A stretch of 64,000 nucleotides of DNA from Arctopsyche grandis. Taxonomy: Eukaryota; Arthropoda; Insecta; Trichoptera; Hydropsychidae. A model generated the notes under the pieces. That model saw only the letters and a program-made list of their open reading frames with translations. It searched no databases and was not told the origin of the DNA. The DNA lies in NCBI RefSeq assembly GCF_051622035.1, contig NC_135357.1, forward strand, positions 21,256,256 through 21,320,255, read 5' to 3'. How positions within the stretch are numbered: the stretch's first letter is position 1; the number at the start of each line of letters is the position of its first letter. The position numbers and the translations under genes were made by a program. Of this stretch, positions 12,651 to 46,789 are shown one piece after another.

Positions 12651-15600
12651 TTAACACACATATTGCTTGACAAGCGCTCTCATAAACTTGGCTTTTCGTT
12701 TGTTGGCAGCTTCCCTTTGAATTTCTTCATTATTATTAGAATTCAACTCGAGCATTCCCATCACCTTAACGGCCAATTGCTTTCTATGCGTCTCTCCTCG
12801 TTTATGATGCAAATTGATTAAATACTCCAAAATGCTGGTATCCCAAATACAACCATAATAGCTATCCATGGCATCAGAACACAAATGGGTCATTTCAGAG
12901 AGACATTTAAAAGCTAAAACGTAATCAATTTCTTCTAAAAATTGACACAATATTGCTGCTTGAGTTGGACAATTCAACTGAGTGCAACACTTAATCATTC
13001 TTCTAAAAATAGTTTGATCTTCAATGAGCTGCTTTGATAGTGGCTGTACGAAATTGTCAGAGAGGATTGTCAAAGCAGTCAAATATTGCTTCATAGCAGT
13101 TGCATAATGTCCACCGACCAAGCTCATGTCACCTAATAATTTTATCCAGGAAATATTGTTTGGGTAATATTTTAAAGCCTGTGTGACCAGCTGATACAGA
13201 GTGTTCGAAACGAATTGAAGTGAAATTGTGCTATTTACTTTGGCAGGCCATAAATTTATATATTCCATATTCAAATCCATGTTTGAATCATCTTTTTGAA
13301 CATTAAATAACTTTGCAAGGAGTGAAATGACAACAGAAAGAACTGTGGGATCTCGAAGTTTGGAGAAAAATGAAGTCATCCCATCTTTCATTTTACTATT
13401 AGCCGGTGGCTCTCTGTTGCTTGAACTTATAGGATTACCAGAATTACTGCGCTTCATAGACGAAGATGTAGGATGAACGATCACAAATATTGGGACAACT
13501 AAAAGTAAAATGAAATTAGAATTTGAAAATTATGGGATTTTAAACATTATGTTAAAAACTCTATATACCCATGTCCCAAAGGTCTTCGGGTAGTTTTTTA
13601 GTTGGTTTTGTCCGAAGGTGATGAGCGGCTAGCGCTGTAGCAACGGCAGCTTCAGCTTGTCCAGTTCCACGAGTTGTAGCTGCCAATTCGGCGAGTTGTT
13701 TCCATTCACCACCATTTAGTAAACAAATGAAACACTGTTCAACAATCTAAAACATAACATATTTAATGTCAACAATATTTTCTTGTGCTCACAATGGAAA
13801 GGGGTGGTGCGCAGCACCTCGATACTCCTCGTTAGTAACGATCATTGGTCAAGAAAGACCCGATGTTAAAGAAGAAACTTTAATTTTTTTTAACAATGGC
13901 CAAATTGCAAAATTGATTACCCATTCACGTTTACAGCCAAAAAAAAAGTAAAAATCAAAATATCAAATATCTATGTCGAATATGAAGTATGTATGTACCT
14001 CCATTCGGGGAATAACATTATCGCCAGACTGCAGAGCAAGAATACACATGGTTGCCTTATTTACCAACATATTCATATTATTCTTATGAAGTGGCCAATC
14101 TGCTAACATCTGTAAGCGTAATCAAAGTTTAATACATAGTAAATAGTTAAAAATGCGAACAGATAAAAAATAAAATAAAAATCAATTCAATCACACCTGA
14201 GTTATTTGCATAAGAAGTGCTTCCCAACCAACAAGCTTGCAAAGTTTATACATGACTGAATTGTTAGCTGCTGCATTACTATTCAATACAGTGCCAGCTT
14301 GATTCAATTGATTTCTTGTTTCTGTTTCTAGTATGAGAAGTAGTTCCAGTGCTGAATTATGGTCACCCATTTCCGCTTGCTGTTTCGCTTTACCTAAGAT
14401 AATATAGCTAAAATCCTGAAAGAGGCAATAAATTTTCACATTGAATTATTAGATTTAACATACATGATTCTTAAATTAAAAAAAGGGTAGCTTAAAATAT
14501 AATTAACAATATGGTATTAGGTATACTGAGTAGTTAGACTGTCATATAACACCCAGCCCTATGAAAATATATTTTTTTCTTTTAAAAATTAGTCTATTCT
14601 AAAATTTCATAATTCGACTTTTATTGAAAATTGAGACTTTTTTGCAAACTAAATCCTCTTGAAAAATACATTTAAAGCCTATCTTCTAAAATTTGTTACG
14701 CTTTAAAAACATGTTTTCATTTCGAACCTTACTTATGAGCTTTTTTATATATATGTGACCCGTAATTATAAATTGTTACATAAATACTTTCTGCACAAAA
14801 GGGAGTTTCAGCTTATTAAGAATCCTGCTGACATAAGCCTTTTTTTACAAACTTTTTATTAGTTTTTCCATTTCTCCTAATGCCGAATATCTCAATGAAG
14901 ACAAGAGAGATAGTACATTCATAAAGCTACAGTCCCTAGCGCGCGTCGAATATAAAATACTGCATATTACAGTACCATAAATCCAATTCTCTACTCTTTG
15001 CATAGTTTTACTTCAAATAAAAATACACTATACATCAGAAAAGTAAGACATCCTTACGCAAAATCTACTATATACTCACTTGGAAAGAAATAGTTAAGGT
15101 TTCTGAGGTAATTCCCAAGGAAGGAGACGGAGGGGGGGGGGGAGTTTTAGATTCAGTTATGTGCAACATTTTAAAGCGTTAAACGTAAAGGGTCATGTTC
15201 AAATGAAGCTAAATGTAAAAAAAAAATCTTTGATTAACGCTAACGTCACCATCAAAGCTAGTCATTATAATCATCTACAGAGAAGTAAATCATCTACAAA
15301 GAAGATTTACTTCAAAAATCAGTGTTTTCAAGGTCTATAAAAATGGTGTTGGTTACTTTTTTTTCTCTTGTAAGCAAAGATATTAATCAAAATTCAGTAC
15401 CAGCATTATAGTATGTGAATACTATATATAAAAACGGACTGTCGCTAAATATATTTGTATATTTGTATATTTGTATATTTGTATATTTGTATATTTGTAT
15501 ATTTGTATGTGACGGACGATCAACCATCAACCAGTATGGGGAACAAATTTTTTTTTTTTTTCATATTTTTCAGTTTTTTAATTTTTTTCATTTTTTCAGT

Positions 15601-23019: not shown

Positions 23020-26000
23020 TTATAAGAGCTGCAATCTTTCACGAAGATGTTTCAGCTCGAAATGAATCTCTTCAGGTAAATCTTCTCCAACTTGTTCAGT
23101 GAAGTATTTATCTATAGCTTCAGTCTGAAAAATATTTAAAAAAAACATTTGATTTAATACATTTAATATTTATTACATATAAATCAAATGATATTTCTAA
23201 ATTAATAAACATAAAAAAGTCTGAGCGAACTCACCTCTTTTAACCAAAATTCTTTCGGTATATTGAATAATTCGTCTAAATCTACAGTCTCTTTCAAACC
23301 TTCTAAATTTAGTGAATTTTTCTTAGGCAACAAACCGATAGGACTTTCAATATAGCAAGGCTCATTATCACATCTTCTAAGCACCCAATCGAGAACACGG
23401 CAATTGTCACCAAATCCAGGCCAGAGAAATTTGCCCTAAGTGAATTATAACAAGTCAGTTCATGTTCAAATACTAATTCAGAACTATTTTTATTGACTTT
23501 CAAAAAAATAACCGTAAATTTACCTGCTTATTTTTCCTAAACCAGTTTACATGGAAAATTTTTGGTAATTTTTCAGGAGTTGTTTTCCTACCCATTGACA
23601 ACCAATGAGACAGATAATGTCCAAAATTGTAGCCGAAGAATGGTCTCATAGCAAATGGATCATGCATGATCATTTTTCCCTGTTAAAATAAAACGATTAA
23701 TTTACAAAGTACGAAATGTGTTTGGAATTTTGTATAAAAATATTATGCTTACACTATGTTCAGCAGCAGCGGTAGCTTCAGATCTCATCGAAGCACCCAG
23801 AAAAACTCCATGAGTCCAATCATTAGCTTGATAAACCAATGGAACTCCTTCAGGCCTTCGGCCACCCAGTAATATAGCTGAGATTGGTACACCAGCTGAG
23901 CTCTCCCACGCAGGATCAATTGTTGGGCATTGTGATGCTGGTGAACAAAACCTGTAAAATTAACAAGTAATTAGCATATCTCACAAAACTTATTGCTGGA
24001 TTTTTTAAATTAAAATTTATTGAAGAAATAAATTACCTTGAATTTGGATGTGCAGCCGGTTTATTACTTTCAACTTTGTCCCATGGTTGACCAAGCCAAT
24101 CAGTCACCTGAACATCTTTTGGTGGTTTCCCCATACCTTCCCAATACACACCTCCATCACTCGTTGCTGCCACATTTGTGAATATAGTATTTTTAAATAT
24201 AGTTGCCATAGCATTAGGATTTGTTTCATTTGATGTCCCTAAAATAAAAATTTCATATTTTAGTTACACTCCCTCTAAATAGAAAATAACAATTTAAATT
24301 TATCACTTACCAGGAGCTACTCCAAAAAATCCGTTTTCTGGGTTGATTGCTCTTAACTGTCCTGTCTCATCAAATTTCATCCAAGCTATATCATCTCCTA
24401 CACATTCAATCTTTAAAAACAAATACGTTAAACACTATTGAAAATCAAGTAATTTAAGACAAATCAAATATATAATATAAATCGAACTAACCTTATATCC
24501 AGGAAGACTAGGCATCATCATGGCAAGATTTGTCTTACCGCATGCGGATGGGAAAGCTGCTGCAATATATCGCTTGTGGCCTGAACGATCAGTAATACCA
24601 AGAATCTATCAGAACAATTATCCATTAATATCACAGAAAAATAAAATAATTAATAGAGTCCTTGAAATATTCAATTACCAGCATATGTTCAGCAAGCCAA
24701 CCCTCTTTTTGTGCAATCGTAGATCCAATTCTCAATGCAAAGCATTTTTTGCCTAGCAGAGAATTTCCTCCATATCCACTACCATATGACACAATTTCAT
24801 TATTTTCGGGTCTGAAACGAATTTCAATCATATATTATATGGATACCACCAAAACTAAAAGGCATTGCCTTGGATTATATAAAATATTTAATACTCACTT
24901 GTGAAGGATAATTGTTCTAGCGGGATCGCAAGGCCAACTTGGCATTTCGTGAATACCATTTGATGGCGTGCCAACTGAGTGCAAACATTTGACAAACTCC
25001 ATATTTTCTCTCATTAAAAGCTCGAGTACTTTTGACCCCACTCTGGTCATAATTCCCATAGAATAAACTACGTATGCAGAATCTGTCAATTCAATGCCAA
25101 TTTTAGACAAAGGCGAGCCAATCGGTCCCATGGAATATGGTATGACATACATAGTACGACCTGTTTAAAATAAATAATATTTAGTTTCAATAAGACATCT
25201 ATATTTTAATCTAATAATGATTAAATTATATATAATATATAACGGTTATGACTCTTACCTGTCATACATCCTGGGAATCGGTCGGCAATAGCATTGTTGT
25301 AATCTTTAGGACTTATCCAGTTCCCCAATGATGACTTTCCTCTGAGTGTGCGTGGAACGACATCATGTTGTCTCTCAGTGCAGATAAATGTGCGGCTTTC
25401 AACTCGAGCAACATCAGAAGGATTGGTGTTTGCCAACCAACTATTACAGAAAAACAACCATAGAAATACACATGTACATTAATAAATTATATAAATATAT
25501 ACATACATACATATAAAACAATAATACTTTAAAATCAATTTACTCACCAATTTTCATATTTCGGTAACAGCTTAATAGTCCCATTAGCTTGCATTAACTT
25601 TAGAAGAGTTGCACTTTCGGTGGCACTTCCATCACATATATGAACCTGATCCGGCTGACACAATGCGACGCTCTCTTCAATGTACGAAAATACCTAAATG
25701 ACAATAAATTTATTATTATTCTGTACGATTCAATGGCACAAACATAGTATAGGTACATATATATAAAATAATACCTTAGGTCCTAAATGTGCAAGATTTC
25801 CATTTATAATTCTAGTTCCTTTGATGCTATGGATCGATTTATTTTGAATCCCATATCGCATAGATACATTGCCAAAGTGGCGAAGAACTGGGCTGGTGCA
25901 TCTAGAAAAAAATATATAATAAATTTAGAAAATAACATTTACACATACTGAAAATACAATGAAAAAACCAAGTTTTATATTTAAGTATGCTTACAACATC

Positions 26001-29000
26001 GTTTGTGTTTCTACGGCTTCAGGCATATTTCTTCAAAAGTATGTGTTTTTACAAGAACCTCGATTCTATTCAAAAAATGAGATGCTCACAGTGGAAATGT
26101 CCATGAAACCAAAAGGTAATCAAGACAAGACAGAAATGCGAGAACCGAATGTGGGGTTACGATGAAACGTTTCAATTTATAGATGAGGATTGAAGCCCCC
26201 ACTCCAAATGGTCTTTATCAGTTGGAGGAGTGTTGGACGTTAAGCGATTTGATTGGTCCGCTGGGAGGTGTGGCAGCTGACGCAACCCAACAGACCGGTT
26301 GCTAATGTCGACTCTCGACCATCGACATCAACCAACAAAAATTCTTATTTAAATTCACACAACAATTCAAAAGAACAAAGCATTGCATTTTCTTATCTGC
26401 AGTGTTTTCTAAAGAAATTCAATAGCAAAAAAAATAATTTTAATATTTTCATTCCTTACCTATATGAAATTTAATATTATTTTAGCACTTAAACCAGCTT
26501 TTTTTTAAAAATGTCACTTGTACCAGTCTGGTTTTCAGCCCGTCATATGTACTTCCAAATTACATTTATTTTATAATTTACTAGTGGTTTTACCCGGCTT
26601 CATTCGGTGTTTGTAATATAAACCGCTTAAACATGGCCAATCTAATAGTAAACATTTTAATAAATTTACTAGCCGAACCCTGCATGCGTTGCAATGCCAC
26701 AATAACGCATGCAATTCCCGTTCCCGTTCCCTTTCCCGTTCTCGTTCCCGTTCCCGTTCCCATTTTTCGGAACAACGCAGGCAGCGAACACCTTGGTCGC
26801 GACGCGAAAACATTTGAAATTATAGTGAATGACACTCATTCCCGTTTTTCCCGTTTCCGTTCCCGTTTTTTTTTCACAGTAAGGCTGGCCGCGCACTAGG
26901 CAGCCAGGCTGCCGCAGCCAAAATATTGAGCAGCCAGTTTCGGCAGCCAGAGTCGACGGCCAGTAGTCACCTTTCCGTCAAGCGTAGAAGAAATAATTCT
27001 TTACCTCTTGTTTCGTAAGAAACGCAAAGCAAAGAGAAGATTTTGGATTCATTCATTCAAACAAACAGCGTTTCCAGAATTGAATGGAGAAAGATGGATT
27101 GAGATAGCAAATGGTTTCAATAAAAATGCAAATTTTCCCAATTGCATTGGTGCCATCGATGGTAAACATATATGTATGTAAGATTAATAAAACCAAGCTT
27201 TCCTCACACTTTGTATTTGTGATTTCCTACCATCTTCGTCTTTTCACATCTCGATCACTATATTCTTCTGAAGACATATCCCATATTGCCTTACGATTTA
27301 ATCCGTTAACAGATATCCGTTACAGATAATCCTTGAAAGGTCACACAGTCTCTGGGATTCTATTCGCTATCCGCGGCGTAAAACTTCTGGCTGCTACGTC
27401 AAGTGCGCGGAGACTGAAGGCAGCCACATACTAGCCACATACATTCTACCTTGCAGGCTCTGGCTGCGTGCAGCCAGCTGGCTGCCATGCAATCGTACGC
27501 GATCTATTGGCTGCCGCAGCCAGGAATTCTTGGCTGCCTAGTGCGCGGCCAGACTAATCTTCCCGGACATGCATACAAAAAATCCTGAAAGTTCCATCGT
27601 AATCGCTTCAGTGGCTTAGGAGCCTATTCGAGACACACACACACACAGACATTCATTTTTTTATATATAGATAGATTTAAATGGTTTTATTTAATTTAAA
27701 TTTATTTGAATATTCATTTGTTTTTTATTAAATTGAACATCACGGACTCTACGAACCAAACAAACAAACAAACATACATACATACTCTTTCGAAATCATA
27801 TATTAGATTATTCAATATTATTCCTTTAATATAATTCCTTTAAAACATAACATCGTCGTCTATTATATATGTAAAAGTCAGTCCTACAAGAGACTCCGAA
27901 TTCACCTCAATTTTGTCATGGTGGCGATATTGAAAACTCAACATTGATAAATAATTGATTAATAGGTGTGATATCCATTAAAATTGCAAAATCGATCAAA
28001 TATGCAAATCGAACCGTGTTAATCATTACTCATTGAGTATACTCTTCTTGACTTTACCATTCAAACTTGTTTCTCAATTCCAATAATGAATTCAATTAAA
28101 ATAAAGTAACAACGGGTTCGTCAGGTATATTTAAATAATAGCATACATATGTAGATACATACATACATACATATATGCATATGCACAAATATTTTTTTTA
28201 TTTTATTATCCAAATATAAAATAAATATTATCATCTGTGTGGATAGAATAGATAAATGATAAATAAAAAAAATTGCACATTGCACAGATAGTCACCTATG
28301 TACCTGTATATACATACATACATATATATGTAAATACTTACATAGAGTATAGATTTGCATCACGTAGTTGATGAATAATATGTGATATGTGATATTTTGA
28401 ATAATAATATAACGCTGTTTATGATAAATATGTCTACGATGTACAATTTATGTATATACGTACATATATTTATATATATAAGTACATAATATAATATGTA
28501 TCGTAGTGCAGCTATCGAGCTGGTTTCAAAGGGATTCCAGAAACCTTTTGTTCACAATTAAAAAATGTACGAAAACCTCTTGCTAAATTTATTCCATAAT
28601 AAACTTTCCCTTGCCAGTTATCTTTTTTTTTAAAATTAACAATAATGCAATATTTGTCAAAAATATGTTCACATTAAATATACATATCAACATCATGTCT
28701 GTAACCAGAGGGGGGGGGGAGCTATGGGGGCGCCAGCCTCTCCTAAATTTAAAAAATAATATTATGAGGATGATAACTTATGAATTTTTCATTCATTTGT
28801 AAATATATGTAGAATACTAGTGTTTTTACCCGGCTACACTCGGTATTTGTAATATAAACAGCTTAAACATCGCCAATCTAATAATAAACATTATATTAAA
28901 TTTATTTGAATAGTTTTATTTTATTTGAATATTCATTTGTTTTTTTATTAAATCGAACGTCACGGGATCTACGTCCCAAACAAACAAAAATACATACATA

Positions 29001-32000
29001 CAAAGTCACTTTCGAAATTATATATTAGATTACTCTGGTACTTTTTGAACTTAAATGAGTCTAGCACTTGTGTTTCATACCTTCTTAAAAAATCCTGGCT
29101 ACGACCGTGATGTGTGTACATATGTATATAGTTGTTTCGATGAAAATTAAAGCCGATGAGAGCTTCAGCCATCTGTAAAAAAAATCCGGATACCGGGAAT
29201 ATTTAAATGGTTTCAATAACTACAGTATTGGAAGAATGTTTTGTTAAAAATTGATGTTAACACTCTCCCATTGAATAAAAAGATCCCCGACTTAGACGAA
29301 TAATCTATTCTCTCCTCTTGAAACAATACGTACATACATACGTAGGTTTTATTTCAAAATATATTATTTAAATGGGGAAAAATTATATCGCGAATTTCGG
29401 GCCGTTTTGTATGAAAATCCCCAAATAAAATCGTAATACATACGTGTATGTGGGTCACAAGAACTATCGATAACAACTCGTTTTGTGTGGTAAATATCCT
29501 TGATACGTATCCGTATAAACTTATGTGATACGAGATGCACGGAATTTGTGGTACATTTGGCACTTTCAAGGTTTTCTAGTAACTGGTCTCTAGGCTGTGA
29601 TGTAATCAATTCAATAATAATATTGGACATAGTGACCGTTATCTGATTTATGACCTTTAGAAAAATGATGCAAGTTCACAGATTTTTCAAACATTGCTAT
29701 GTTATCACTTCAGACCATTGCAATCTTAATGGAGTATAATGATCAAATTTCTCCCGAAACATAATTAAAATTACCTTATCTAATCTAGTCCGGAAAAAAT
29801 AAAAGAAATCATTGTTTTATAATTTCTTCGAATATTTCGTCATTTGTTTTGTTGCGATAAGCGATCTCATCCTCAAATATGTGAAAACACTACTTTTAAA
29901 CAATAATTAAAAATAAATTACATACTATCATAATACAATGATTAAGACAGTAATTTAAAGAAAATTCGAATAAAACTCAGCAATGAAAAACCTTAATTAA
30001 AGATTTTATAAAAAAATATTTGCTTATTAAACTTAAAATGTTATTGTACTATCTTTTGAAAATCTTTTTGATTATCAGGATATTTTTATCTAAGAGGAAA
30101 AATAACATTTAAACAAAATATTGTATTTTTTGTTTTATAATTTTAAATGACACGTTTTCATTATCTTATTTTATGCAAAAAAGTTGATTCTTCTCATTTT
30201 CATTAAAGACTTCATATATTAATACTTCGATTCGAATTTTACAATAAAATACAAATGCATATATGCACACAATATTTTGGCTGATATCTTGTACATATGT
30301 GGTTGAGTACATATTCCATACCCATTATGCCATTATGATATTGCGCTGACGATAATATTGATGCTGCACCAACTCTGTGACAAAAGATTTGTGCACAAAA
30401 ATATGCATGTGAACACATATATGTACATATGTGAATACATATTCCATAGTATGTGAGTAGTGTAATTACATATTGGATAAAGATTCGAACTGCCTATACG
30501 TTTGTAATGACGATTTTGTCGCGATTCGGTTAACGTGAAAATAATTTTTGACATACAATACATAATTGATACTAATCATAAGCGTGCACGAATATTTGCA
30601 TAATTATATGTATAGCAATAAAAAGGAAAAATGATATAACATTTAAATTGTGAGCTCGACAGCAACCGATTTAAATTGCTTAACATTTCCAAATTATCTC
30701 ATGAATAATGCAATTTACAAAATGCTGGGTTGCGCTTGAACAGTCCAGCATTTTTAATATTATTTTTTCAAATTAGCTTGACTTAAGAGTGTACGAAAGA
30801 AACAAAGAATTTTGTTTTTATGTACATCGCCTTTTTATAAAAGTTTAATTACTCTAAATACTACTATTAAATTTCTGTTTCATAAGTTAAAGACCAGAAT
30901 GATTCTTGAACCAAATGTAAAGGATCTCGAAATCCGAAAATTAGCCTATTTATTGCTTTGTATGGTGAAATTGAGTCTTTATGTACCTGGAAAAATAGCC
31001 TTACGCATATACAAACAAATTAATGTGACGTTTTTAAAATCACAATCGGAGACGAGACGGTATCAAAGTCCGAACCGAAACCGTAGTCGAAGTCGTAAGT
31101 CGGAGTCGATCGATGTCGGGGTCAAAGTATATATGTATATAGAGTCGGAGTCGGTTTTTTTGTAACCAATTCCACAGCCCTAGCTATTTATGTACAAACA
31201 TGTGCATGCATGCATATGGAAATCGAGAAGCAAATTGAGTGACGAGACGAGCCCCTTTTTTTTTTTTTTTTTTTCTGCGTCGTATTCTTAGTTTCGTGAG
31301 CGGAGGCGCGGCTCGTGACGTCATTCGCAACTTCATATCAACGCGGTGCGCTGTTGCCAAGCTTAATATTTTTTTTTCGCTCGTTTTATTGTCGCTGTTG
31401 CTGAGCAACAAGTGGCAATACGTGACCCTAATAACACGAACAAAAAAACATTTAGAATGTTGACGCCGAGATAAATTAGTAGGATCGTGCTGGGGACCTG
31501 AGCTTCTTTTTTGCTATGTATGTAACTTATAAATAATGGATGCATACATAGGTAAATAATATACATAAATAACTAAATTACTTAGTAAAATATAAATATA
31601 AATATTTTTTGACCATTGTGGCGCATTAGGAATTCCTGTAATGCCACAATGGTCTGAACTTTAAAATAAATAAAGCAAAATTTCATTCAAGAATTAAGAT
31701 AGGAGTACATATGAACTTGAAAAAAGGTATTAATAAAAATTAAATGTAAACGTAATGACAAATTCAACAGAAATTCATTTTTGAAAGAACAAAAACATTT
31801 TTTCTGCATTCTAAGATTGAAAACTTAGAATGCAGAAAAAAGGGCTGCACACCAGCGCCTTGTCCATACAAACGTATTAGACTTCTCCCTTCCTCAATTA
31901 TGGCACTAGAGAAATTATTTTTTAATATGCTATGGATATCCACCATTGGGATGCATGTATCGTTTTATTTTTTTGATTAGTTATTTTTTATAGGAGCTAG

Positions 32001-35000
32001 GAGCCGCCAAACATCTATAAAATCGCCTCTTTTTTACACCCACGAAAATAGTCTAGCGTGCTTATTTAACGGTCGATTTTAAAAAAAATACGCGCATAGT
32101 TGCACAGAAAATATCTTTCTCATACCGATGATGAAATATTTTTAAAAATTGGTCCAGTTTTGGAGGAGAAAATACGAGAATACGAAACCTCGATTTTGTC
32201 GATTTAAAATACGTATTATCTGGTCGAAGCGCAACTGTCGCATTCACTCAATATACATATATATTGATATATATTGTCGCATTCACTCAATATATATATC
32301 GAAGAAAGGAACGGCAACAAAATTAAGGTTTCGGGTGTACAGCCCTCTTAAGCATAGGCGCTCAAGTGCAATTTCCCAGGAAAGACGGATTGTCTATTTC
32401 TATTGTCAACCTTTTTTTATGCTCTCTAACTTTGTAGAACAATAGAAATTGACAATAGGCAAACCCTCTTTCCTGGGAAATAGCACTCGAGCCCCTATCC
32501 TTAGTTATTATTAGAGTACGGACCCAAAGCGCGCCGCTCATTGTTCAATTGTTGTAAATGCTTTGTAAAAAAGGTTTGGCAAACCTTTAACAATGCATTT
32601 ACAACATTTGAACAATGAACGGCACGATCTATGTCCGGGCTTTAGTTATTACTACAAAATTTCCGGTATGTCAAATTTACAAAATGTTGAAGAATCAAGT
32701 GAGAATAGTAAAAAATATTGAACACATCGCAGCGAGTCAAATATCTATATGTGGTTTTGAGAATAGTTTGACTTTTGTATTAATATATCACATTATCAGT
32801 GGCGTGCGCTGAAATTCTCTCTCTTTTTGTCGTACAGCCTTACTTAATGTGCACGAACAGGATACAAGAGGAACAGCCTGTTCCTCTTGAATCCTGCTCG
32901 TGCACATTAAGTAAGGCTGTACGACAAAAAGAGAGAGAATTTCAGCGCACGCCACTGCACACTATATATAATGTCTGCAGGACTGAAATAAATCTTCAAA
33001 ATCAATTGACATGTATGTTGTTTTCGGCATTGGCTGGGTGCTCGTGAGATAATAATAGACAGCTGCATTATTATACAAATCAAGAGAGCAAAAAAGCATA
33101 GTTGACAATAGTGAATCATTTTTTATGTTAAAAGTATCGTCCCAACTAAGGATAGGCGCTCGGGTTTTATTTCACAGGAGTTGCCTATTGTCAACTTTTT
33201 TTTTGCTCTCTAGCTTTGCAGGACAGTAGAAATTGACAATAGGCAACCCCTATTTCCTGGAAAATAGAACCCGAGCGCCTATCCTTAGTCCCAACGCCGA
33301 TTTTTGTGGATAAGTAGAAAATTTCTTTCAACATAGTAAGGTCTGCTTAGACTTTTCGGGTCACTAGGCCGCAAAACAAATCTAAAGCACTATGGGGGCA
33401 CAATATTTTTTTTCTTACGGGGAGGGGAGTGGTTAGCAAATGGTTGTAAGAAGTAACGAAAACAATAGTAGAAGAAAAAGCGAATAAGAGTTCAACTTGA
33501 GAGTCCAAACAAGGGTTCAATGAGTTCAAAAGAACAACTATACCACTTTCGAGTAAAAAATGTTTATAAGATACCGTATATGTAGCTCAATATAGCTCAA
33601 TAAAAAATATACCTCAATCCATTAAACAGCTTCGGAGATAATAACAATTCAAAGAAAAATTAAAAAGATAATGGGAGATACCACTTCCGGTAAACACAAA
33701 AAATACACTTTAATGATTAACATTTCAAGAACCGATATTAAGTTTTCCAAAATAATGATTAAATAATGAAAAAAATATAAATTTTCTGAAAATACCCCTT
33801 TCGCCATGCAAATGCCCGGTGTGAGTATAACATGATTGGTATAGGAGTTTCTGTTAAAACGGCAACTTTGAATTCTCGTTTCCACTATTCATCATAGGAA
33901 ATCCAAAATTTGTATTTTTCGTTCCAACCCAATATATGTACATATATTGGATCAGACCTGCGGTCAGCATCCTTTGATAACTTTCAAAAATATAAAAGCA
34001 ACTGAAAGAATATTAAAAATATTTTCAAGAAAAATAATAAAATCAACAAATTATTTCAGTTGAAAATGACTAATAGGAAATGCTCAAGAATACATACATA
34101 TATATATATAGTTTATGTAGTACATGTAGTATATATGTACCTACATATGTATATATGTATTCCTAAACATTCCCTAATAGTCATTTTCAACTGAAATAAT
34201 TTATTGATTTTATTATTATTCTTGAAAATATTATTAATATTATTCAATTGCTTCTATATTTTTGAAAGGTACTAAAGGTCACTGACCGCAGGTTGGGCAG
34301 AGCTAGGGTTTCCAATAGGTCACTTTTCAAGAGAGCATGTCCTCTTTTTGGATAAAATTGTTTTGTTCTCTCTTGTCAAATATGCTCAAAAAGTGCTCTT
34401 TTAATATTTGGCCGAATTTTAAATATCTTTGAAATGATTAAATAAGCATTTACGATTTTTTTATAATAAAATGAGTATTTACATATACCTAATAGTGATT
34501 AATAACCAGCGAGCACATTATTTAAATATGTACATACATATATGTATGTACATAATATATTATAAGAAAATTTGAACAATTTAAATCTGATCTGATCAAT
34601 ATTTCTTTTTAATGAGTGTTATATAACTACATATATATGCAATTTACGTTACGGTATTTTCTAAAATGGAACAATTCTTAGAAGATAGTTTTCTAATAGT
34701 TATGTAAATGCAAGTAAATGCACCCGCAATGACATTTCAAGAGTTGGTAAAAAAATTCGTAAAAAAGACAATATTATTTTATGACCATAATTTTTGTAAT
34801 TTTTTGTTTGTTTTAAATTAAACTAGCACTTATTTTTATTAATACATGAATTTTCTAATCTTTAAACCGTTTTGAATTTTTCGTATAATTTAATAGTAAT
34901 AGTAATTGTTCTTTTTTTACTTCACAGTTGACAACCCTAGGCTGGGCTTGACTAACTATTTTTTACAATGTAAAATTATATTTTTTACACCCTCAACGTA

Positions 35001-38000
35001 CTGAGTTCCACTAAACAAACCTCAATTGACAAAAACTGACAATAAACCATTTGATAGAAATAATATTGTTGACCTCTGCCCTGAATAATATGCAGATATT
35101 TATTTGACGTTTTATTATTATAGATACACATAATTAAGTATCAACAAATTTGTTTTTAATAATAATTGTTGTTGTTGTTGTTGTCTACGACTTCGTGCAT
35201 GCTTAATTATAACAAAATATTATGTAAAACTACGATCAAAACATATCATATGTCCTTGAAATCATTTAAGGCAACGGTACCCAACCCGTGGTACGCGAAA
35301 AAAACCCAGTAATGGCGGACATGCAAGAATGAATGATTTACAATCATAAAGAGAAATATTTTTTATATAATTAATAAACATTATCTTAATTAATCATAGT
35401 CGACGTCAATATGTACAGCCGATGATCGAAAACCCGGCAATTGATACCGTTTTATAAAAGACAAATATAGAAATAGGTTGAATGCAACTCCACAATTTGA
35501 AAAAAAAAACGTTCTTCGAAACAAGCACAAGAGTCCCAATACATTTATTTGGTAAGGAGATTTACTTTAGAAAAGAAAATATATTATATCTACTTTGTAA
35601 TTTTGTGTTTTTATTAAAACCATTTATCAATAATAGAAACATGACGAAATAGTAGATAAATATATAAAACTTTGAGCATATTATAATTGTGACTCCGAAA
35701 ATTTCTTAACAAAACAGATCTATTGCGTTTTTACATTCCTTACCATGCAAATATTATATTATTACATTTGCAATAACAAATTTCATGAAATACAATCATT
35801 TTTATATGGTGGTACAATTTAGTGTAATGTACTACCAAGTGGTACTCGAGTCAAAAACGGTTGGGAACCGCTGATTTAAGGAAATGAAGTGTATACATAC
35901 CCGTATGTATATATGTATTAGAAATTACTTAACATAATTTAATTGAAAATATTTTGAAACTATAAGCGAAATCATGTAAATGCGACCTTTCAGTGTTATA
36001 TGTAAGTATACGTAAACATCTTATTATTCCACTTATTATCGTTTAAATAAAATCAACGTCGTTTTGTACGAGATGATGAAATCAATTCACAAGTGTTTAT
36101 TTGGCAGTAAAACGAATGTCAAATTGTAAATACTACACATGTATATTATGTACATCAGTAAGGATTAATGTAATTATGAATACATAAAGAATATGCTAAA
36201 AATATTTGCATTGCATATTTGATCTATAATTTCGTCAGCAATGTTTTGTCCGACTCCCACTTATCGCCCAGATTCATATATGTTCATATGTGTATGTACA
36301 TACATAATTAATACATACATATGTGGGTAATAATTTTAGCAAGTAAATTGAATCAAATCATGTATATTATTTGTATTAATTCATTCATTTGTAATGTCTA
36401 TATATCATTTATATGGACGATGGGGATTGCACTATCCTCTCTATCGTCTGGAATAAAAAAGTTATTATTATTAAATCATTCATCATTATTTTTATTATTG
36501 TTCAAATGTTGTATTTAGTAAAATTTATCTATTTTTAAAATCTAGCGTGTTGAAATTTATACCGATGATCAATCTCGTCCGATCTAATCAATCAAAGGAA
36601 ATCGATTAGATTATTATTTTAAATATAATAAAAACGCCTCCTTTTCAATCTAATGGACTTTGCCCGTCCGATTTGATCAACGTCATGTATTATATTATTC
36701 AACAAAATATTTCCTTGTCCCCCATTTAACACTTTTGTACTCACATAAGTATGTACATATCGGGCGTAGTCCATGGAAGTTTATCTATTTTTTTTATCAA
36801 TTTCAATGAGACCTGATCTTGATAAACATACACATGTATTTGCCACAGTACACATTTTAAAAATATGACCAGTTATTTGAATCGGGAGGCACATTTTTAT
36901 TTGAACTCAATTTCAGGGTAACAAAAAAATTATAATTAAAATAAGAAAGCCACTAAACAATTCGATATTGAACCGTACAGACACATTCACACATATCGGC
37001 AGCATTATAAAATACTATGACAGTATTTTCGATACAAATTGAGCGCAAAAGTAGAGAAACTTACCTAAGACAAAAGTACTACTTCCGGTTGCCGGATTTT
37101 GTTCAATATTTTTTTATTACTTAAATATCACTTTAAATATTATAAACTTAAAATATCAAGAAGACTTTAGAAGATTTTTTTTATTTTCATCACCTTGAAA
37201 ATTTACGATTTTTGGGCAATAAAAATATTGTCCCTTTAGGTGTGTGGTTTTTAACGATCGGGTCTTACATATGATTGTTTTCTACGATTTGAGTTGAGTT
37301 TAGTGTGAGCTGTCGAGGTTTACGGATCGAAATTGTTGAAAATAAAAATACCATGCAACAAGACACTCAACTATCATTGGAGGAGAATATAAAAATCGCG
37401 GCTTTGGCAGACTCTGGACATTCATTGCGATCAATTTCTCAACAAATGGGACGTTCTGTATCTACTGTGTCAAGAATAATGAAAAAGAAAAAAGATTCTG
37501 GAACTTTTGCTCGTAAGAAGGGGACAGGACCGAAAAGATGCACATCCGAGAGACAAGATCGCCTGATAACTCAATTATCTTTACGGAAACGGTTCAAAAC
37601 TGCTGTAGAGATAAGAAAAGAGATCTCGGATCAATTTTCAATTGAAATTAGTGATGTAACCTTAAGAAGACGACTCAGAGAAGCTGGACTGTACGATTAG
37701 AATGGTCGAAATATCACGAAAATTGGACGACATCGGATTGACGACAAGTGATATTTTCTGATGAGTCAAAATTCAACCACTTCAGCTTCGATGGTTTTCC
37801 GTATGTTCGAAGAAAAGTTGGAGAAAGATTCGACCAAAAATGTACCCTGAAGACAGTGAAGCATGCCTCAAGCCACATGGTTTGGGGATGTTTTCCTTAT
37901 TATGGAATCGGTCGAATACAGTTTATGCAAGGTTCCATTAACGGAATAGCATATAAAAAAATTCTAGAAGAAAGTTTTATCCGATCAATGGAAAACCATC

Positions 38001-40267
38001 TTTCAAATTCTGATGATGTCATATTCCAAGATGACCCTGCCCCTTGTCATCGAGCTAAATTAGTGAGTATTAATTTTATTTAATGGTATTGAATGTAATT
38101 AATAATATTTCGATCAAAAAACTGAAATATTTTTGTTACTTTTTTTTAGGTTCGGGTTTATTTGCAGGAATTGGGTGTAAAGACATTAACATGGCCTGGG
38201 AATAGTCCCGATTTAAACCCAATTGAAAATTTATGGATGGCTATTAAATATAGGATTAGTAAAACAAATGTGTCTAGCCATCAATCATTAAAAGTGACCA
38301 TTGAAAAAGTATGGTATGAAGACTTCCCCATCGACATTTTAAGAAACTTAATAGATTCTATGCCTAGCCGTATAAAAGCCGTCATAAAAGCAAAAGCAGC
38401 CGCAACAAAATATTAATTAAGTTTTTATAATTTGTAAATAATACCATGTGACTAATAAAATTAAAAGTTTACGCTCAACTGTGTTTTTTCATTCAAAATT
38501 TCATTCAACTGTGGATACTGCGTTTGGTCATAAAAACCGGCTCGGACTAAAATTCTCCCTACCTTTTTTTTGTTGTTCCTTTTCTTAAAGATTGTCGTTA
38601 AAATAAAGCACTATGATATAATCTACCATTTTAATGACTCTGGGTGTTTATTTTATGATCACTGAAATTTCAAGCAAAATCACATTTTTCTATGGTGTTC
38701 CGGTTTCCGAGACCGCAACTGTACATACTTTCACTGCAATAAATTTACATATTTGTATAAGTCCATATGTAGATACACCAAAAATTATATGTTGGTATAT
38801 ACGTATGTATGTAGGTATATTGTCTCCATCACCATTTCATAATATTCTACAATTAAATATATATTTTTGAAGCTGATAAAATCAGTCTGGTATTCATTTT
38901 CAACATAAACAGGTGTCGATAGTAAATGTTGACAAATTGAACCAAAAATACCGGTTCAAATTGGTTTTAAATGGCAAATATCAAATCAGCTGTTTGAATA
39001 CACTTATCTTGAATATTGAATGCTCGCAAGCTTCGAAATTAAACGAAAAATGGTTGAGAAATTTAGATAATATGATACTAAAAACAACAATGAATTGAGG
39101 ACATTCTAAAAAGTTTAGGATTCAACTTTTTCAAGTCATTTGAGTTCAGGGCTTAGATTAATAAATAAATCATAACTGAAAATCAAAAGTCTAATTTCTT
39201 TCGAATATACATATTATAGATTTTCCATCAATTTTACTATTTGGAATATTCATATCCAATGCCGGTCTTACACCCAATGGCGCCCTCGGGCAATTTTTTC
39301 TAAACACCCTTAGAAAAAAAAAATACTGGATTACCATCTTCTCCTTTATAACTCCTTTTTCCCGGCCTTGGAACCTTGCTACAGTTTCATGCAGTGTCAG
39401 CAAAAGCATAGAAACTCAAATGTTTGAATATAATTCTTGTAAATTGTGCCATTTTATAAAATTTAATACAATGAGTGGATTAATTTTACCTTGAACTTTA
39501 TTTGAAAGAAAGGAAGAAATTGATAAGTTCATTACATACTAATAATATCAGATTTTGAATTCGGTTTTTTTCCAGTAGATTTTTTGACTAGAATCTGCCG
39601 AGTACAAATATAGGACCTTTGGCGCTCTAATTTTAATTTTAAAGCACTTTTGGCGCATCGAGCGGTGCTCTTACTTATTTGGCGCCCGACCCAGCCCCCC
39701 CCCCTAAAACCAGCACTATTCATATCCCTATCACTAAAGGACAAAGCTGGCATCACGTGCAGGGCTGTTGAGAGAAGAGGGGACTAACTTTTAGAAAAAT
39801 CATGATAAGGATATATTTAAAAAACTGATTTAATATCGATAGCAAATAAGGAATCCGAGCTCGCCTGTATATGTACTTCAAGGATAATCAAAAATATTTT
39901 TGCCTGCGGCGAATTTCACAGTTATTGAACATAAAATATCGAATAAAGGGAAGATTTTGTTTTGAAAATTCTGAAATAATCCCCCCCCCCGCAATTAAAG
40001 GGCCCAAGTTCGTTCTTGATGGCCCTGGTCACGTAGTATGGATATATCACCTACGTGACTACTACACATAATACACATTAAACTTATGTAAATGATCCCA
40101 AAATATGAACTATGTACTTTCAGATAATCCATTATTTATTAAAATATGACGAATCAATTACGTGAAATATAAATATTGTCTTAAAACCAAAATATCAACC
40201 AGGAAAAATTAAGCTTACATATTATGTAATTGACTCACCTGGAGATCACCAAAAACACGAATACCAT
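23020..40267 (-). CDS. Pepck: Phosphoenolpyruvate carboxykinase, GTP-dependent
   Basis: Converts oxaloacetate and GTP to phosphoenolpyruvate, CO2 and GDP, the committed step of gluconeogenesis/glyceroneogenesis. Exons (reading order): 40267-40239, 25901-25775, 25693-25548, 25440-25259, 25160-24899, 24811-24679, 24605-24492, 24410-24311, 24238-24037, 23951-23753, 23679-23524, 23435-23235, 23124-23020. They sum to 1956 nt, 651 aa, with every phase matching. Motifs: P-loop FPSACGKTN with the reactive Cys at residue 315 and Lys 317; kinase-2 GDDIAW at 336-341; [15 protein letters not shown]; guanine-site FLWPGFGDN at 553-561. Residues 1-57 contain no Asp or Glu and several Arg, like a mitochondrial presequence. 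Met24 (MRYGIQ) could start a 628-aa cytosolic form. Intron 1 is 14.3 kb. Confidence 0.94.
26090..26256 (-). promoter_or_regulatory. Putative proximal Pepck promoter and non-coding exon
   Basis: On the minus strand there is a CCAAT box (26252-26256) in the sequence GCGGACCAATCAAATCGC, then CTATAAATTG as a TATA box (26175-26181). A start would be expected near 26148. A GTGAGC donor just below 26090 would splice to the Pepck exon ending at 25901, leaving a 188-nt intron. Transcripts from here would lack the distal ATG. They carry a short upstream frame (ATG at 26104-26102) overlapping the in-frame Met24. Base composition is more balanced than in the surrounding intron. Confidence 0.5.
26669..27671 (-). 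mobile_element. Family 1 Helitron, nested and itself interrupted
   Basis: Minus-strand copy starting TCTATATATAA at 27671 and ending GGGTTCGGCTAG at 26669, lying between A and T of the family 2 Helitron. It contains the family's (GGGAAC)n purine tract at 26700-26765 and is split by the Harbinger element at 26883-27554. Confidence 0.8.
26883..27554 (+). mobile_element. PIF/Harbinger transposon, deletion derivative
   Basis: Ends GGCTGGCCGCGCACTAGGCA and, inverted, GTCTGGCCGCGCACTAGGCA, with a 3-bp TAA duplication (26880-26882, 27555-27557), as expected for Harbinger. At 27092-27171 the plus strand reads [10 protein letters not shown] followed by [14 protein letters not shown], the region around the first catalytic Asp of Harbinger nuclease. 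The rest of the transposase is deleted. 27297-27383 matches the end of the LTR-like repeat at 47802-48212. Confidence 0.85.
28817..29029 (-). mobile_element. Family 2 Helitron, isolated copy (213 bp)
   Basis: Minus strand: starts TCTAATATATAATTTCGAAAG at 29029 and ends AAAAACACTAG at 28817, between host A and T. It contains the AGTGTAGCCGGG terminal hairpin segment. It lies in the first intron of Pepck. Confidence 0.78.
29030..32348. other. Pepck intron 1, stretch without recognised elements
   Basis: AT-rich, with TACATATGTA simple repeats. 31050-31160 has a GGAGTCG/GAAGTCG hexamer-like run, and 31255-31330 a poly-T followed by a short GC-rich patch. A short inverted pair, ACCATTGTGGC and GCCACAATGGT, surrounds 31610-31655. 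I see no exon or complete transposon. Confidence 0.5.
32349..32503. mobile_element. MITE, family G, copy 1
   Basis: Inverted arms TAAGCATAGGCGCTC and the complement of TAAGGATAGGGGCTC extend inward through TTTCCCAGGAAAG and CTATTGTCAA. No duplication is visible, perhaps because its right end touches the target of the next element at 32504. A copy with a clean duplication is at 33147-33287. Confidence 0.7.
32512..32644. mobile_element. 133-bp MITE, family B, copy 2
   Basis: Opposite orientation to the copy at 5089-5221 but exactly the same length. Ends TAGAGTACGG and CCGGGCTTTA. Flanks GTTATTAT (32504-32511) and GTTATTAC (32645-32652). Confidence 0.83.
32797..32957. mobile_element. 161-bp near-perfect palindrome MITE, family H (hAT-like)
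   Basis: Ends CAGTGGCGTGCGCTGAAATT and its complement; the arms pair almost completely to the centre (GGAACAGCCTGTTCC). Flanks CACATTAT and CACACTAT agree at seven of eight bases. Confidence 0.85.
33147..33287. mobile_element. MITE, family G, copy 2
   Basis: Ends TAAGGATAGGCGCTCGGGTT and its complement. Perfect 8-bp duplication GTCCCAAC (33139-33146, 33288-33295). The interior shares CTATTGTCAAC and TTTGCTCTCTA with copy 1. Confidence 0.85.
33683..33691 (+). repeat. Isolated relic of the satellite's ACTTCCGGT box
   Basis: ACTTCCGGT in a context (GATACCACTTCCGGTAAAC, then AACATTTCAAGAACCGATA) resembling the diverged half-units at 61000-61460. A decayed fragment of the same family, in Pepck intron 1. 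Confidence 0.45.
33953..34297. mobile_element. Foldback element, family I
   Basis: Arms CAGACCTGCGGTCAGC and the complement of CTGACCGCAGGTTGGG continue for about 130-150 bp (ACTTTCAAAAATATA, AATTATTTCAGTTGAAAATG). The centre is a TATGTACATATGTA simple repeat. No clear target duplication. Confidence 0.7.
34304..34939. mobile_element. hAT-like element, family D, copy 2
   Basis: Ends TAGGGTTTCCAATAGG and GTTGACAACCCTA, subterminal GAGAGCATGTCCTCTTTTT as in the copy at 10844. Flanks GGCAGAGC and GGCTGGGC match at six of eight, so it is probably older than copy 1. Confidence 0.65.
35272..35873. mobile_element. hAT-like element, family J
   Basis: Ends CAACGGTACCCAACC and CGGTTGGGAACCGCTG, each followed inward by a GTGGTAC motif. 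Perfect 8-bp duplication ATTTAAGG (35264-35271, 35874-35881). No transposase remains. Confidence 0.85.
36940..37240 (+). repeat. Dispersed fragment of the 48.5-61.8 kb satellite-bearing element
   Basis: Shares ATACAAATTGAGCGCAAA, then a run to TACTACTTCCGGTTGCCGG and ATTTTGTTCAA with the left edge of the satellite array (48885-48970). It contains one ACTTCCGGT box at 37081-37089. It lies just upstream of the Tc1-like pseudogene. Confidence 0.7.
37353..38416 (+). pseudogene. Tc1/mariner transposase (DD34E), broken, with an intron
   Basis: 37353-37700 encodes the N-terminal helix-turn-helix region ([19 protein letters not shown]), ending near REAGLYD. A deletion and frame change follow; the downstream frame resumes at 37697 and has a stop where a Trp is expected, just before VIFSDESKF. 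The catalytic triad is recognisable: Asp in IFSDESKF, Asp in FQDDPAPCH, Glu in [10 protein letters not shown], 34 residues after the second Asp. Between CHRAKL and VRVYLQEL stands a canonical intron (38063-38149, GTGAGT to TTTTTTTTAG). The 3' part, to the stop at 38416, is open. Orientation is opposite to Pepck, in whose intron it lies. Terminal repeats were not firmly identified. Confidence 0.88.
39257..39718. mobile_element. hAT-like element, family K
   Basis: Ends CAATGCCGGTCTTA and, inverted, TAGTGCTGGTTTTA; duplication TTCATATC on both sides (39249-39256, 39719-39726). GGCGCCC motifs lie near each end. Non-coding. Confidence 0.7.
39760..40027. mobile_element. Small hAT-like element, related to family E
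   Basis: Ends CAGGGCTGTTGAGAG and GTTCTTGATGGCCCTG. Flanks ATCACGTG and GTCACGTA share the central six bases. It lies about 200 bp beyond the distal Pepck exon, within the first intron. Confidence 0.55.
40239..40267 (-). CDS. Pepck: Distal first coding exon of Pepck
   Basis: ATG followed by nine codons and two bases, then the donor GTGAGT. The split codon AG plus A (first base of the exon at 25901) restores Arg and the conserved frame. It encodes MVFVFLVIS, which together with exon 2 makes a basic, acid-free N terminus. Upstream (40268-40620) on the minus strand are a CCAAT-like ATTGGT and TTACACAA, a C/EBP-like sequence; these are suggestive only. No other ATG in frame is needed. Support is by phase and context, not by homology of this short peptide. 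Confidence 0.7.
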
Positions 40268-44742: not shown

Positions 44743-46452
44743 TCACGTGGTATTCTGTAATATAGATTTCAGATCATCGGGCAAGATTTTTGTAATATCC
44801 TCTAATTTTTCAGCCAACAAACTCATTGTATTACTCTTTAGTGGCAGATTTATTTCTTCATTGAGGTTAATAGTCTTACGAAGTTTCAACACCATGTCGA
44901 CCAATTCCACTTCTTGTCGACCAGCAGCCCAACTTGCCAAGTCGGTAGCAGCAAGTGCTTCTAATTGCAAAACCTTTAGAGTGCGTACCAATTCCCCATA
45001 TCGACGTTGAAACCAAGCACTGAAATTTGGACTCTTCAAAAATGCCCGATAAAGACCAGCCCAATCGCCTTTGATCCCACTGGTTAAATGCGGGCCAGAA
45101 TGCTGTAACATGTTCATGAAATCTTCTGGATTAAACGGATGAGGGACAGGGGCAGCTCTGAACGCAGAAATGTTCTTTTGCAATGGCATCAATGAAGCCA
45201 TGTATCGTTCGAGTGGAATCATAAAACTATGAGTTAATTCTAACATGTGTCTTCGGACGAGAGCTGCTTGCACTTCGGCGGGTCGTTCCGATCTCAGTGA
45301 TCCACCAGAGAGTCTTTTTAGTATTGTTTTATCTTTAGTCAAATATGGTTTGTATTGAGTGTATACACCAGGTGAAGAATCTGAAGTTTTTGCAGTGCCC
45401 ACTCTTTTCAACTTGGATTTGTAGGATACGGATTCGTCAAGTCGGACGGTGTGAGGCCAATGATGTAACGTTTTCGAAAAAAATGGATTCGTAACACCCA
45501 ATATTACATATGGTGGATTGTACTGTTTTTTGGTAAACTCTTTAAATTCGCTATCATGTATTGTAAAGTATGGTCTATATTCGGCACTGTATTGGAGTGG
45601 ATGAATCAAATCGACTAACGCCTGCACCATCGCCGAGCACGCTGTGGGAGACGACGCCATAACTACAATTGGTTCCGCTGTCAGTACAAGTTCCCACAAG
45701 AGATGCAGGTTAGATAAAACACAAGAAAGGGATGTATACGAGTACACGTCTCTAGGAGATACAGAAATGCTACCCGGAGGCTGTGGTAGTCCTTGAATTG
45801 CAGAGTCCGATTCAGCCTGAGATGGCAGAAAAATGTGTAACACATTGCCTAAGAGGGGAAGCAGAAGACTTCCAGTGTCGAGCGGTGGCCACAGATCGAT
45901 GTCTTTGCAGGCGGCTTCGAGACCCGCCTCTCCATGGTCGAAGAATCTCGGAGCAACGATGCCGCAAACTTTGTACATGAGGTTGATGAGAGGAAGACGG
46001 GTGAGCACAACCACACTTTTCTGGAAGTATCCCCTCGGCAGAGAGGGGTCTTTGACTTGTCGGAAGAAGACGAATCCCCAAAAGTGTGTGGGGTCGGGTT
46101 GGAGCGTGAGAGGACACCTGGCGACGTAACGTTTGAGAGGAACGGTGGATGTGGGAGCACTGGGAGCACGAGTTCGCAGCCTCACGTGGAACCGCGTGTC
46201 GCCCATACAACCCGAATTGGAATCGGGGAACGCCAGGTAGCAGAGGTTCGTCTTGTCGCACTCGGCCAGTTGCACTCCCGCCGGATGAACACTTTCCAAC
46301 GCCTGGCCCACCTCCAGGTCGAAAGTCACCACACAGATGCATTCGATCCATTGTGACAGCCTCTGGCCTCTGCCTCTGTTTCTGTCTCTGTCTCTGTCTC
46401 TGCCTCTGCCCTCGATTTCTATAGCCGTCTCCGTGGTCTGTGTCGTCTCCAT
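44743..46452 (-). CDS. DENND6: DENN domain-containing protein 6 (DENND6A/B-like)
   Basis: Rab guanine-nucleotide exchange factor family; the vertebrate member acts on Rab14 in endosomal recycling. One uninterrupted frame of 569 aa from ATG 46452 to TGA 44743 (human DENND6A is about 608 aa). The N terminus is a low-complexity Arg/Asp run (RGRDRDRDRNRGRG) encoded by a CTCTGT-type repeat. After it come CICVVTFDLEVGQALE and LAFPDSNSGC (upstream DENN), HFWGFVFFRQVKD, YFQKSVVVLTRLP, the core LWELVLTAEPIVVMASS, YFTIHDSEFKEF and PYVILGVTNPFF, then LERYMASLMPLQKNISAFR and LYRAFLKSPNFSAWF in the C-terminal part. All expected blocks are present in order, so it looks functional. The absence of introns contrasts with its two spliced neighbours. 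Confidence 0.93.
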   Translation of the reverse strand: METTQTTETAIEIEGRGRDRDRDRNRGRGQRLSQWIECICVVTFDLEVGQALESVHPAGVQLAECDKTNLCYLAFPDSNSGCMGDTRFHVRLRTRAPSAPTSTVPLKRYVARCPLTLQPDPTHFWGFVFFRQVKDPSLPRGYFQKSVVVLTRLPLINLMYKVCGIVAPRFFDHGEAGLEAACKDIDLWPPLDTGSLLLPLLGNVLHIFLPSQAESDSAIQGLPQPPGSISVSPRDVYSYTSLSCVLSNLHLLWELVLTAEPIVVMASSPTACSAMVQALVDLIHPLQYSAEYRPYFTIHDSEFKEFTKKQYNPPYVILGVTNPFFSKTLHHWPHTVRLDESVSYKSKLKRVGTAKTSDSSPGVYTQYKPYLTKDKTILKRLSGGSLRSERPAEVQAALVRRHMLELTHSFMIPLERYMASLMPLQKNISAFRAAPVPHPFNPEDFMNMLQHSGPHLTSGIKGDWAGLYRAFLKSPNFSAWFQRRYGELVRTLKVLQLEALAATDLASWAAGRQEVELVDMVLKLRKTINLNEEINLPLKSNTMSLLAEKLEDITKILPDDLKSILQNTT

Positions 46453-46789
46453 CCCGCTGCATTCCCACTCTAATTGGCTTTTCTAGCGTACTCTACAGTC
46501 TACTCGACACACCACACATTATACAGCGTATACAATCACCGATCCCAATTACTGTTACTGCCAAGTGCCAACTGCCAAAGTGCCAATTATCACTACCATT
46601 GCCAACACTGACGACCTGACAACTGACAACCTGACAACTTATTTCTATAATACGCACATCCTGAGGTGGACTCTGCTATTCTACTTACCGCTGTTTTGAC
46701 AAAATATTCAATTTTTAAATTCGATCAAGATATTATCGTAAACATTTTAATTTTATAAAAAATGGAAAAAAACGAACGTTGTATGTATG

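Follow-up and report, generated by a model that had tools for sequence, protein, structure and literature searches.

An apparently single Pepck gene in the caddisfly Arctopsyche grandis with two candidate coding first exons for mitochondrial and cytosolic enzyme

Introduction

In Colias and Bombyx, the compartment-specific forms of PEPCK are reported to differ only in alternative first exons that are placed on common exons 2-13, with a distal mitochondrial and a proximal cytosolic exon 1, each having its own UTR (PMC3556304). The Bombyx gene is described with 12 introns and with its mitochondrial exon on the same strand, tens of kb further upstream; the mitochondrial exon of Colias consists of 11 codons, of which codon 11 is Arg or Lys, and the cytosolic exon there consists of 22 codons (PMC3556304). 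Drosophila also possesses cytosolic and mitochondrial GTP-PEPCK, but obtains them from two linked Pepck paralogs, and vertebrates have both compartment forms as well, but from separate genes of independent origin (PMC3556304). The same paper describes the two-first-exon arrangement as a PEPCK strategy of the higher Lepidoptera and, in the portion of the text drawn on here, leaves the basal Lepidoptera open (PMC3556304). A paper of 2026 conflicts with this account, since the part of it considered here states that only PEPCK-M was observed in B. mori (PMC12837266). By the precedent of Colias and Bombyx, the general two-first-exon arrangement is already known in animals. A title on alternative PEPCK first exons was not present among the best 10 of 146 literature matches, and the titles found in a literature search on mitochondrial PEPCK in caddisflies concern mayflies and bumble bees.

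Here we analyze a 64-kb stretch of DNA from the caddisfly Arctopsyche grandis (the window; positions are those of the window unless a contig or locus is named) that contains a GTP-type PEPCK gene, Pepck. A preliminary description of the window had proposed that this gene uses two promoters, the distal one yielding a long mitochondrial form and the proximal one a short cytosolic form that starts at an internal methionine, Met24. We consider it quite probable that one Pepck gene is equipped with two promoters and alternative coding first exons, the distal exon serving a mitochondrial form and the proximal exon a cytosolic form. The earlier proposal is supported in part: its core, two promoters with a distal mitochondrial and a proximal cytosolic product, fits the sequence, the single locus found and the Colias and Bombyx precedent. 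Its Met24 start after an exon ending at 26090 is probably wrong.

The Pepck Gene and its Common Exons

25901-25775, 25693-25548, 25440-25259, 25160-24899, 24811-24679 and 24605-24492, minus strand: Pepck exons 2-7, with AG/GT borders
24410-24311, 24238-24037, 23951-23753, 23679-23524, 23435-23235 and 23124-23020, minus strand: Pepck exons 8-13, with AG/GT borders
25775..25901, minus strand: common exon 2, with 30 basic leading codons and the PEPCK core next
23020..25693, minus strand: common exons 3-13 with the stop codon, AG/GT borders and PDB matches to cytosolic GTP-PEPCK

Pepck is located on the minus strand, where its common exons 2-13 span 25901-23020. All 12 common exons have AG/GT at their borders and the frame stays open through to TAA, with 1924 coding bases in total, and the acceptor of exon 2 at 25901 reads tttttttctag/ATGCAC. 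Each modelled transcript has 12 introns and includes the 12 common exons. In a profile search of the genome, every exon match to PF00821 (GTP-dependent PEPCK) exceeded the Pfam cut-off (6/6), and in a structure search against the PDB residues 40-650 of the 652-aa form aligned with solved PEPCK (best E 4.8e-272). Since all of the distinct solved GTP-PEPCK sequences (23/23) start aligning at a residue number of at least 40 in the 652-aa form, the first 39 residues constitute an N-terminal part that has no counterpart there.

The preliminary description had suggested a search of the genome for a second Pepck gene, and this search returned one locus in 475.7 Mb: the Pfam-family matches (6/6) and the protein matches (12/12) all fall at C3:21279278-21282158. 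With all matches in one locus, a second Pepck gene dedicated to either compartment is unlikely, as a gene with two first exons predicts. The locus appears to be the sole Pepck gene of the genome, with the reservation that genome searches of this kind score the best candidates only and a divergent Pepck copy could escape them. The region between the first exons is unlike that of Bombyx, which is described with a PEPCK pseudogene at this place (PMC3556304); none was found here by tblastn between the first exons, where just a chance-level match occurred (E 5.4, 29742-29870).

Downstream of Pepck and on the same strand, an INTS8 TPR-repeat ORF is located at 12651-13529 (E 3.7e-113).

The Distal First Exon

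40239..40267, minus strand: distal coding exon 1 of the putative mitochondrial form (651 aa), recognized by exon-2 phase, start context, donor and rank

The distal exon, ATGGTATTCGTGTTTTTGGTGATCTCCAG followed by gtgagt, has the start context CAAAATGG and the donor CAG/GTGAGT. It codes for MVFVFLVIS and holds the first two bases of an Arg codon, for which exon 2 supplies the third. The claim of the preliminary description that an exon at 40267-40239 restores the phase holds, as the junction with exon 2 at 25901 is seen to be in phase. The modelled intron of this form has 14,337 bases and the protein has 651 residues.

In order to place this exon among its competitors, we listed first-exon candidates in the region 48000-25903 (22,097 bases), each defined as a minus-strand ATG with an open stretch of at most 150 bases and an in-phase GT. 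Candidates were scored by donor plus start context, using textbook PWM weights, and the chance level was obtained by simulating the region 30 times with a first-order Markov model. By this score the distal exon ranks first among 395 in-phase candidates with 17.4 bits, versus 11.6 for the next, and no candidate in the 30 simulated regions reached its value. Its donor outscores all 11 donors of exons 2-12. When the 521 bases around the exon were searched against the 475.7 Mb genome, in a search that skips very common words, the single match was the region itself, and thus the exon does not look repeat-derived. Judged by their sequence, the distal exon and the Pepck gene structure have good support. 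An annotation built on exons 2-13 only might overlook the putative mitochondrial form, the coding first exon of which is 29 bp long and lies 14.3 kb away.

Two further observations concern the surroundings of this exon. Within the 14-kb intron that would follow the distal exon, ORFs at 37293-38413 resemble pieces of a Tc1-like transposase by eye. Upstream of the distal exon, a minus-strand ORF of 579 aa at 44743-46482 has an Avl9 match of 22.6 against a Pfam cut-off of 22 bits, together with SPA and DENN matches below their Pfam cut-offs.

The Proposed Proximal Promoter and First Exon

26245..26256, minus strand: CCAAT box, recognized by sequence
26173..26182, minus strand: TATA box of the proximal promoter, CTATAAATTG, approximately 30 nt before the inferred transcript start
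26027..26148, minus strand: putative proximal 5' UTR with a 12-codon uORF, its start near 26148 placed by the TATA position
25995..26026, minus strand: proximal coding exon 1 of the putative cytosolic form (652 aa), with exon-2 phase and the weak donor GTT/GTAAGC

The preliminary description had reported a minus-strand CCAAT box (26256), a TATA box (26182-26173) and a GTGAGC donor after 26090, as well as a methionine in frame at position 24, and all of these are present. It overlooked a proximal coding exon, ATGCCTGAAGCCGTAGAAACACAAACGATGTT followed by gtaagc, that sits below this TATA box. The exon shares the phase of the distal exon, and its last two bases begin a Leu codon whose third base is the first of exon 2. 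The modelled intron of the proximal form is 93 bases long, and the open frame comprises 652 aa. In the modelled proximal transcript the ATG of the uORF comes first, and the in-frame start at 26026 is the second ATG.

By the same scoring, the proximal exon ranks 28th of the 395 candidates with 4.6 bits, and the simulated regions contain a mean of 19.8 candidates each that are equal or better, so that sequence signals alone do not pick this exon. Among the 11 donors of exons 2-12, just one scores below the proximal donor at 25995 (5.0 bits). The exon is supported by its position below the TATA box, by its phase and by the published arrangement, and its signals are not above chance.

The 12-codon uORF at 26104-26066 in the putative proximal 5' UTR is a possible site of translational control.

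Predicted Targeting of the Two Forms

25811..25812, minus strand: boundary behind an in-phase AG inside exon 2, which could act as a weak alternative acceptor and would then give 622 aa

Targeting was assessed from composition, namely charge and helical moment. The distal form was claimed to carry no acidic residue for 57 positions, and its first acidic residue is indeed at position 58. The 41-residue stretch that precedes the core contains 6 Lys/Arg and 0 Asp/Glu (net charge +6), and the maximal helical moment over 18 residues is 0.59, versus 0.36 in the proximal form. The proximal form has Glu at positions 3 and 6 and a net charge of +3 in its pre-core part. Composition alone favours a mitochondrial location of the distal form, the start of which (MVFVFLVIS) is strongly hydrophobic, unlike a textbook amphipathic presequence. 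The basic 30-residue segment of exon 2 is present in the proximal form too, and the internal Met10 of that form would open a protein that is free of acidic residues over 49 positions; the proximal form could therefore be partly mitochondrial. Its predicted cytosolic location is uncertain, with the basic exon-2 segment kept and the donor weak. Use of the internal AG before 25811 would remove the basic segment and join the proximal start to IINGNLAHL. The tract of this acceptor has 7 pyrimidines in 18 positions, versus 9-14 in 18 at the 12 modelled acceptors.

These features can be arranged into several models. In that of the preliminary description, the long mitochondrial form comes from the distal promoter, and the proximal transcript joins a non-coding exon with its end at 26090 to exon 2, so that the short form begins at Met24. 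A donor is indeed present at 26090, and its 6.3 bits exceed the 5.0 bits of the donor at 25995, which counts against our correction; Met24 is in frame as well. However, three out-of-frame ATGs come before Met24, on which ground this exon was rejected, and a short way downstream of 26090 there is a coding exon whose donor is in phase. We regard this model as highly improbable. The open 652-aa frame of the proximal coding exon means that the short form need not begin at Met24, and the proximal form is probably made from the coding exon 26026-25995, which is simpler than a Met24 start after a non-coding exon.

A single promoter could also serve both compartments if the proximal exon were the sole exon 1 and the two products arose through leaky scanning between the MPE start and Met10 or through the acceptor at 25811, the distal exon being there by chance. 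The acid-free opening of the Met10 form and the in-phase AG joining to IINGNLAHL both speak for such a model, but the distal exon is far above chance, a distal mitochondrial exon has been published in Bombyx (PMC3556304), and the pyrimidine tract of the internal acceptor is poor; we consider it unlikely. In a further model, two promoters act in different tissues or stages, and a signal in common exon 2 sends both forms to one compartment. Such a signal could reside in the basic segment that both forms have in common, but TargetP told the two forms apart in Colias and Bombyx, according to the part of the source used here (PMC3556304), and the proximal exon brings two acidic residues near the start, which makes this model improbable as well.

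In the preferred model, the shared exons 2-13 would be fed from two promoters, each having a coding first exon of its own. The distal exon 40267-40239 together with the basic start of exon 2 would form an acid-free presequence of approximately 40 residues that leads to mitochondrial import, and the proximal exon 26026-25995 would supply an acidic start and hence a cytosolic enzyme. The gene model, its phases and the one locus of the genome search are read from the DNA itself; that both promoters are transcribed, and where each form goes, we infer.

Evolutionary Meaning of the Arrangement

Trichoptera is the sister order of Lepidoptera, and as the host of this gene is a caddisfly, the two-first-exon strategy may predate Lepidoptera. 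The features of the lepidopteran type that are found here by sequence are a single gene and two in-phase coding first exons upstream of exons 2-13. Exon number, order and strand match those described for Bombyx and Colias (PMC3556304), and the junction Arg here comes after 9 codons. In contrast to Colias as described there, where the proximal coding exon has 22 codons and the distal one 11, the exons of A. grandis have about 11 and about 10 codons, respectively, and its common exons exceed those of Colias by about 20 codons (1924 vs. 1863 coding bases; PMC3556304). Judged by layout, the arrangement in A. grandis is probably homologous to that of Colias and Bombyx.

The chances stand about even that Lepidoptera and Trichoptera (together Amphiesmenoptera) inherited the two-first-exon strategy from a common ancestor and that it is older than their split. 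If so, one gene served two compartments by promoter choice, where flies and vertebrates used gene duplication instead, and a documented route of splitting an enzyme between compartments would extend from the higher Lepidoptera to their sister order. It would also matter for which PEPCK regions and outgroups are chosen in insect phylogenetics, and for the question of the basal Lepidoptera that was left open in 2013, in the part of the source used here (PMC3556304).

Other Features of the Window and the Genome

No tRNA or Rfam match was found within the 64-kb window. A satellite array with a unit of 307 bp occupies 49052-60880, in about 38.5 copies with a 97 percent match.

Elsewhere in the genome, an mtDNA-like stretch (L012, 1891-5290) lies inside a 42.7 Mb nuclear contig (C1) and carries trnM, trnQ (reversed), trnI, ND2, trnW, trnC, trnY and COX1 in this order, as well as a head-to-head inverted copy of the block from tRNA-M-Q-I through ND2 to tRNA-Y. 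Being located in a nuclear contig and having an inverted copy, it is taken as a nuclear insertion or an assembly error, and the order in the living mtDNA may differ. The ditrysian tRNA order is M-I-Q; an order other than this, together with the L-fibroin match described below, is consistent with a caddisfly host. The order trnM-trnQ-trnI is reported for Arctopsyche (Trichoptera: Hydropsychidae) and Cephidae in the part of PMC9501032 considered here, and the term also occurs in papers on Phasmatodea. The genome further contains one partial L-fibroin match, which covers profile positions 144-219 of 242 (E 9e-11).
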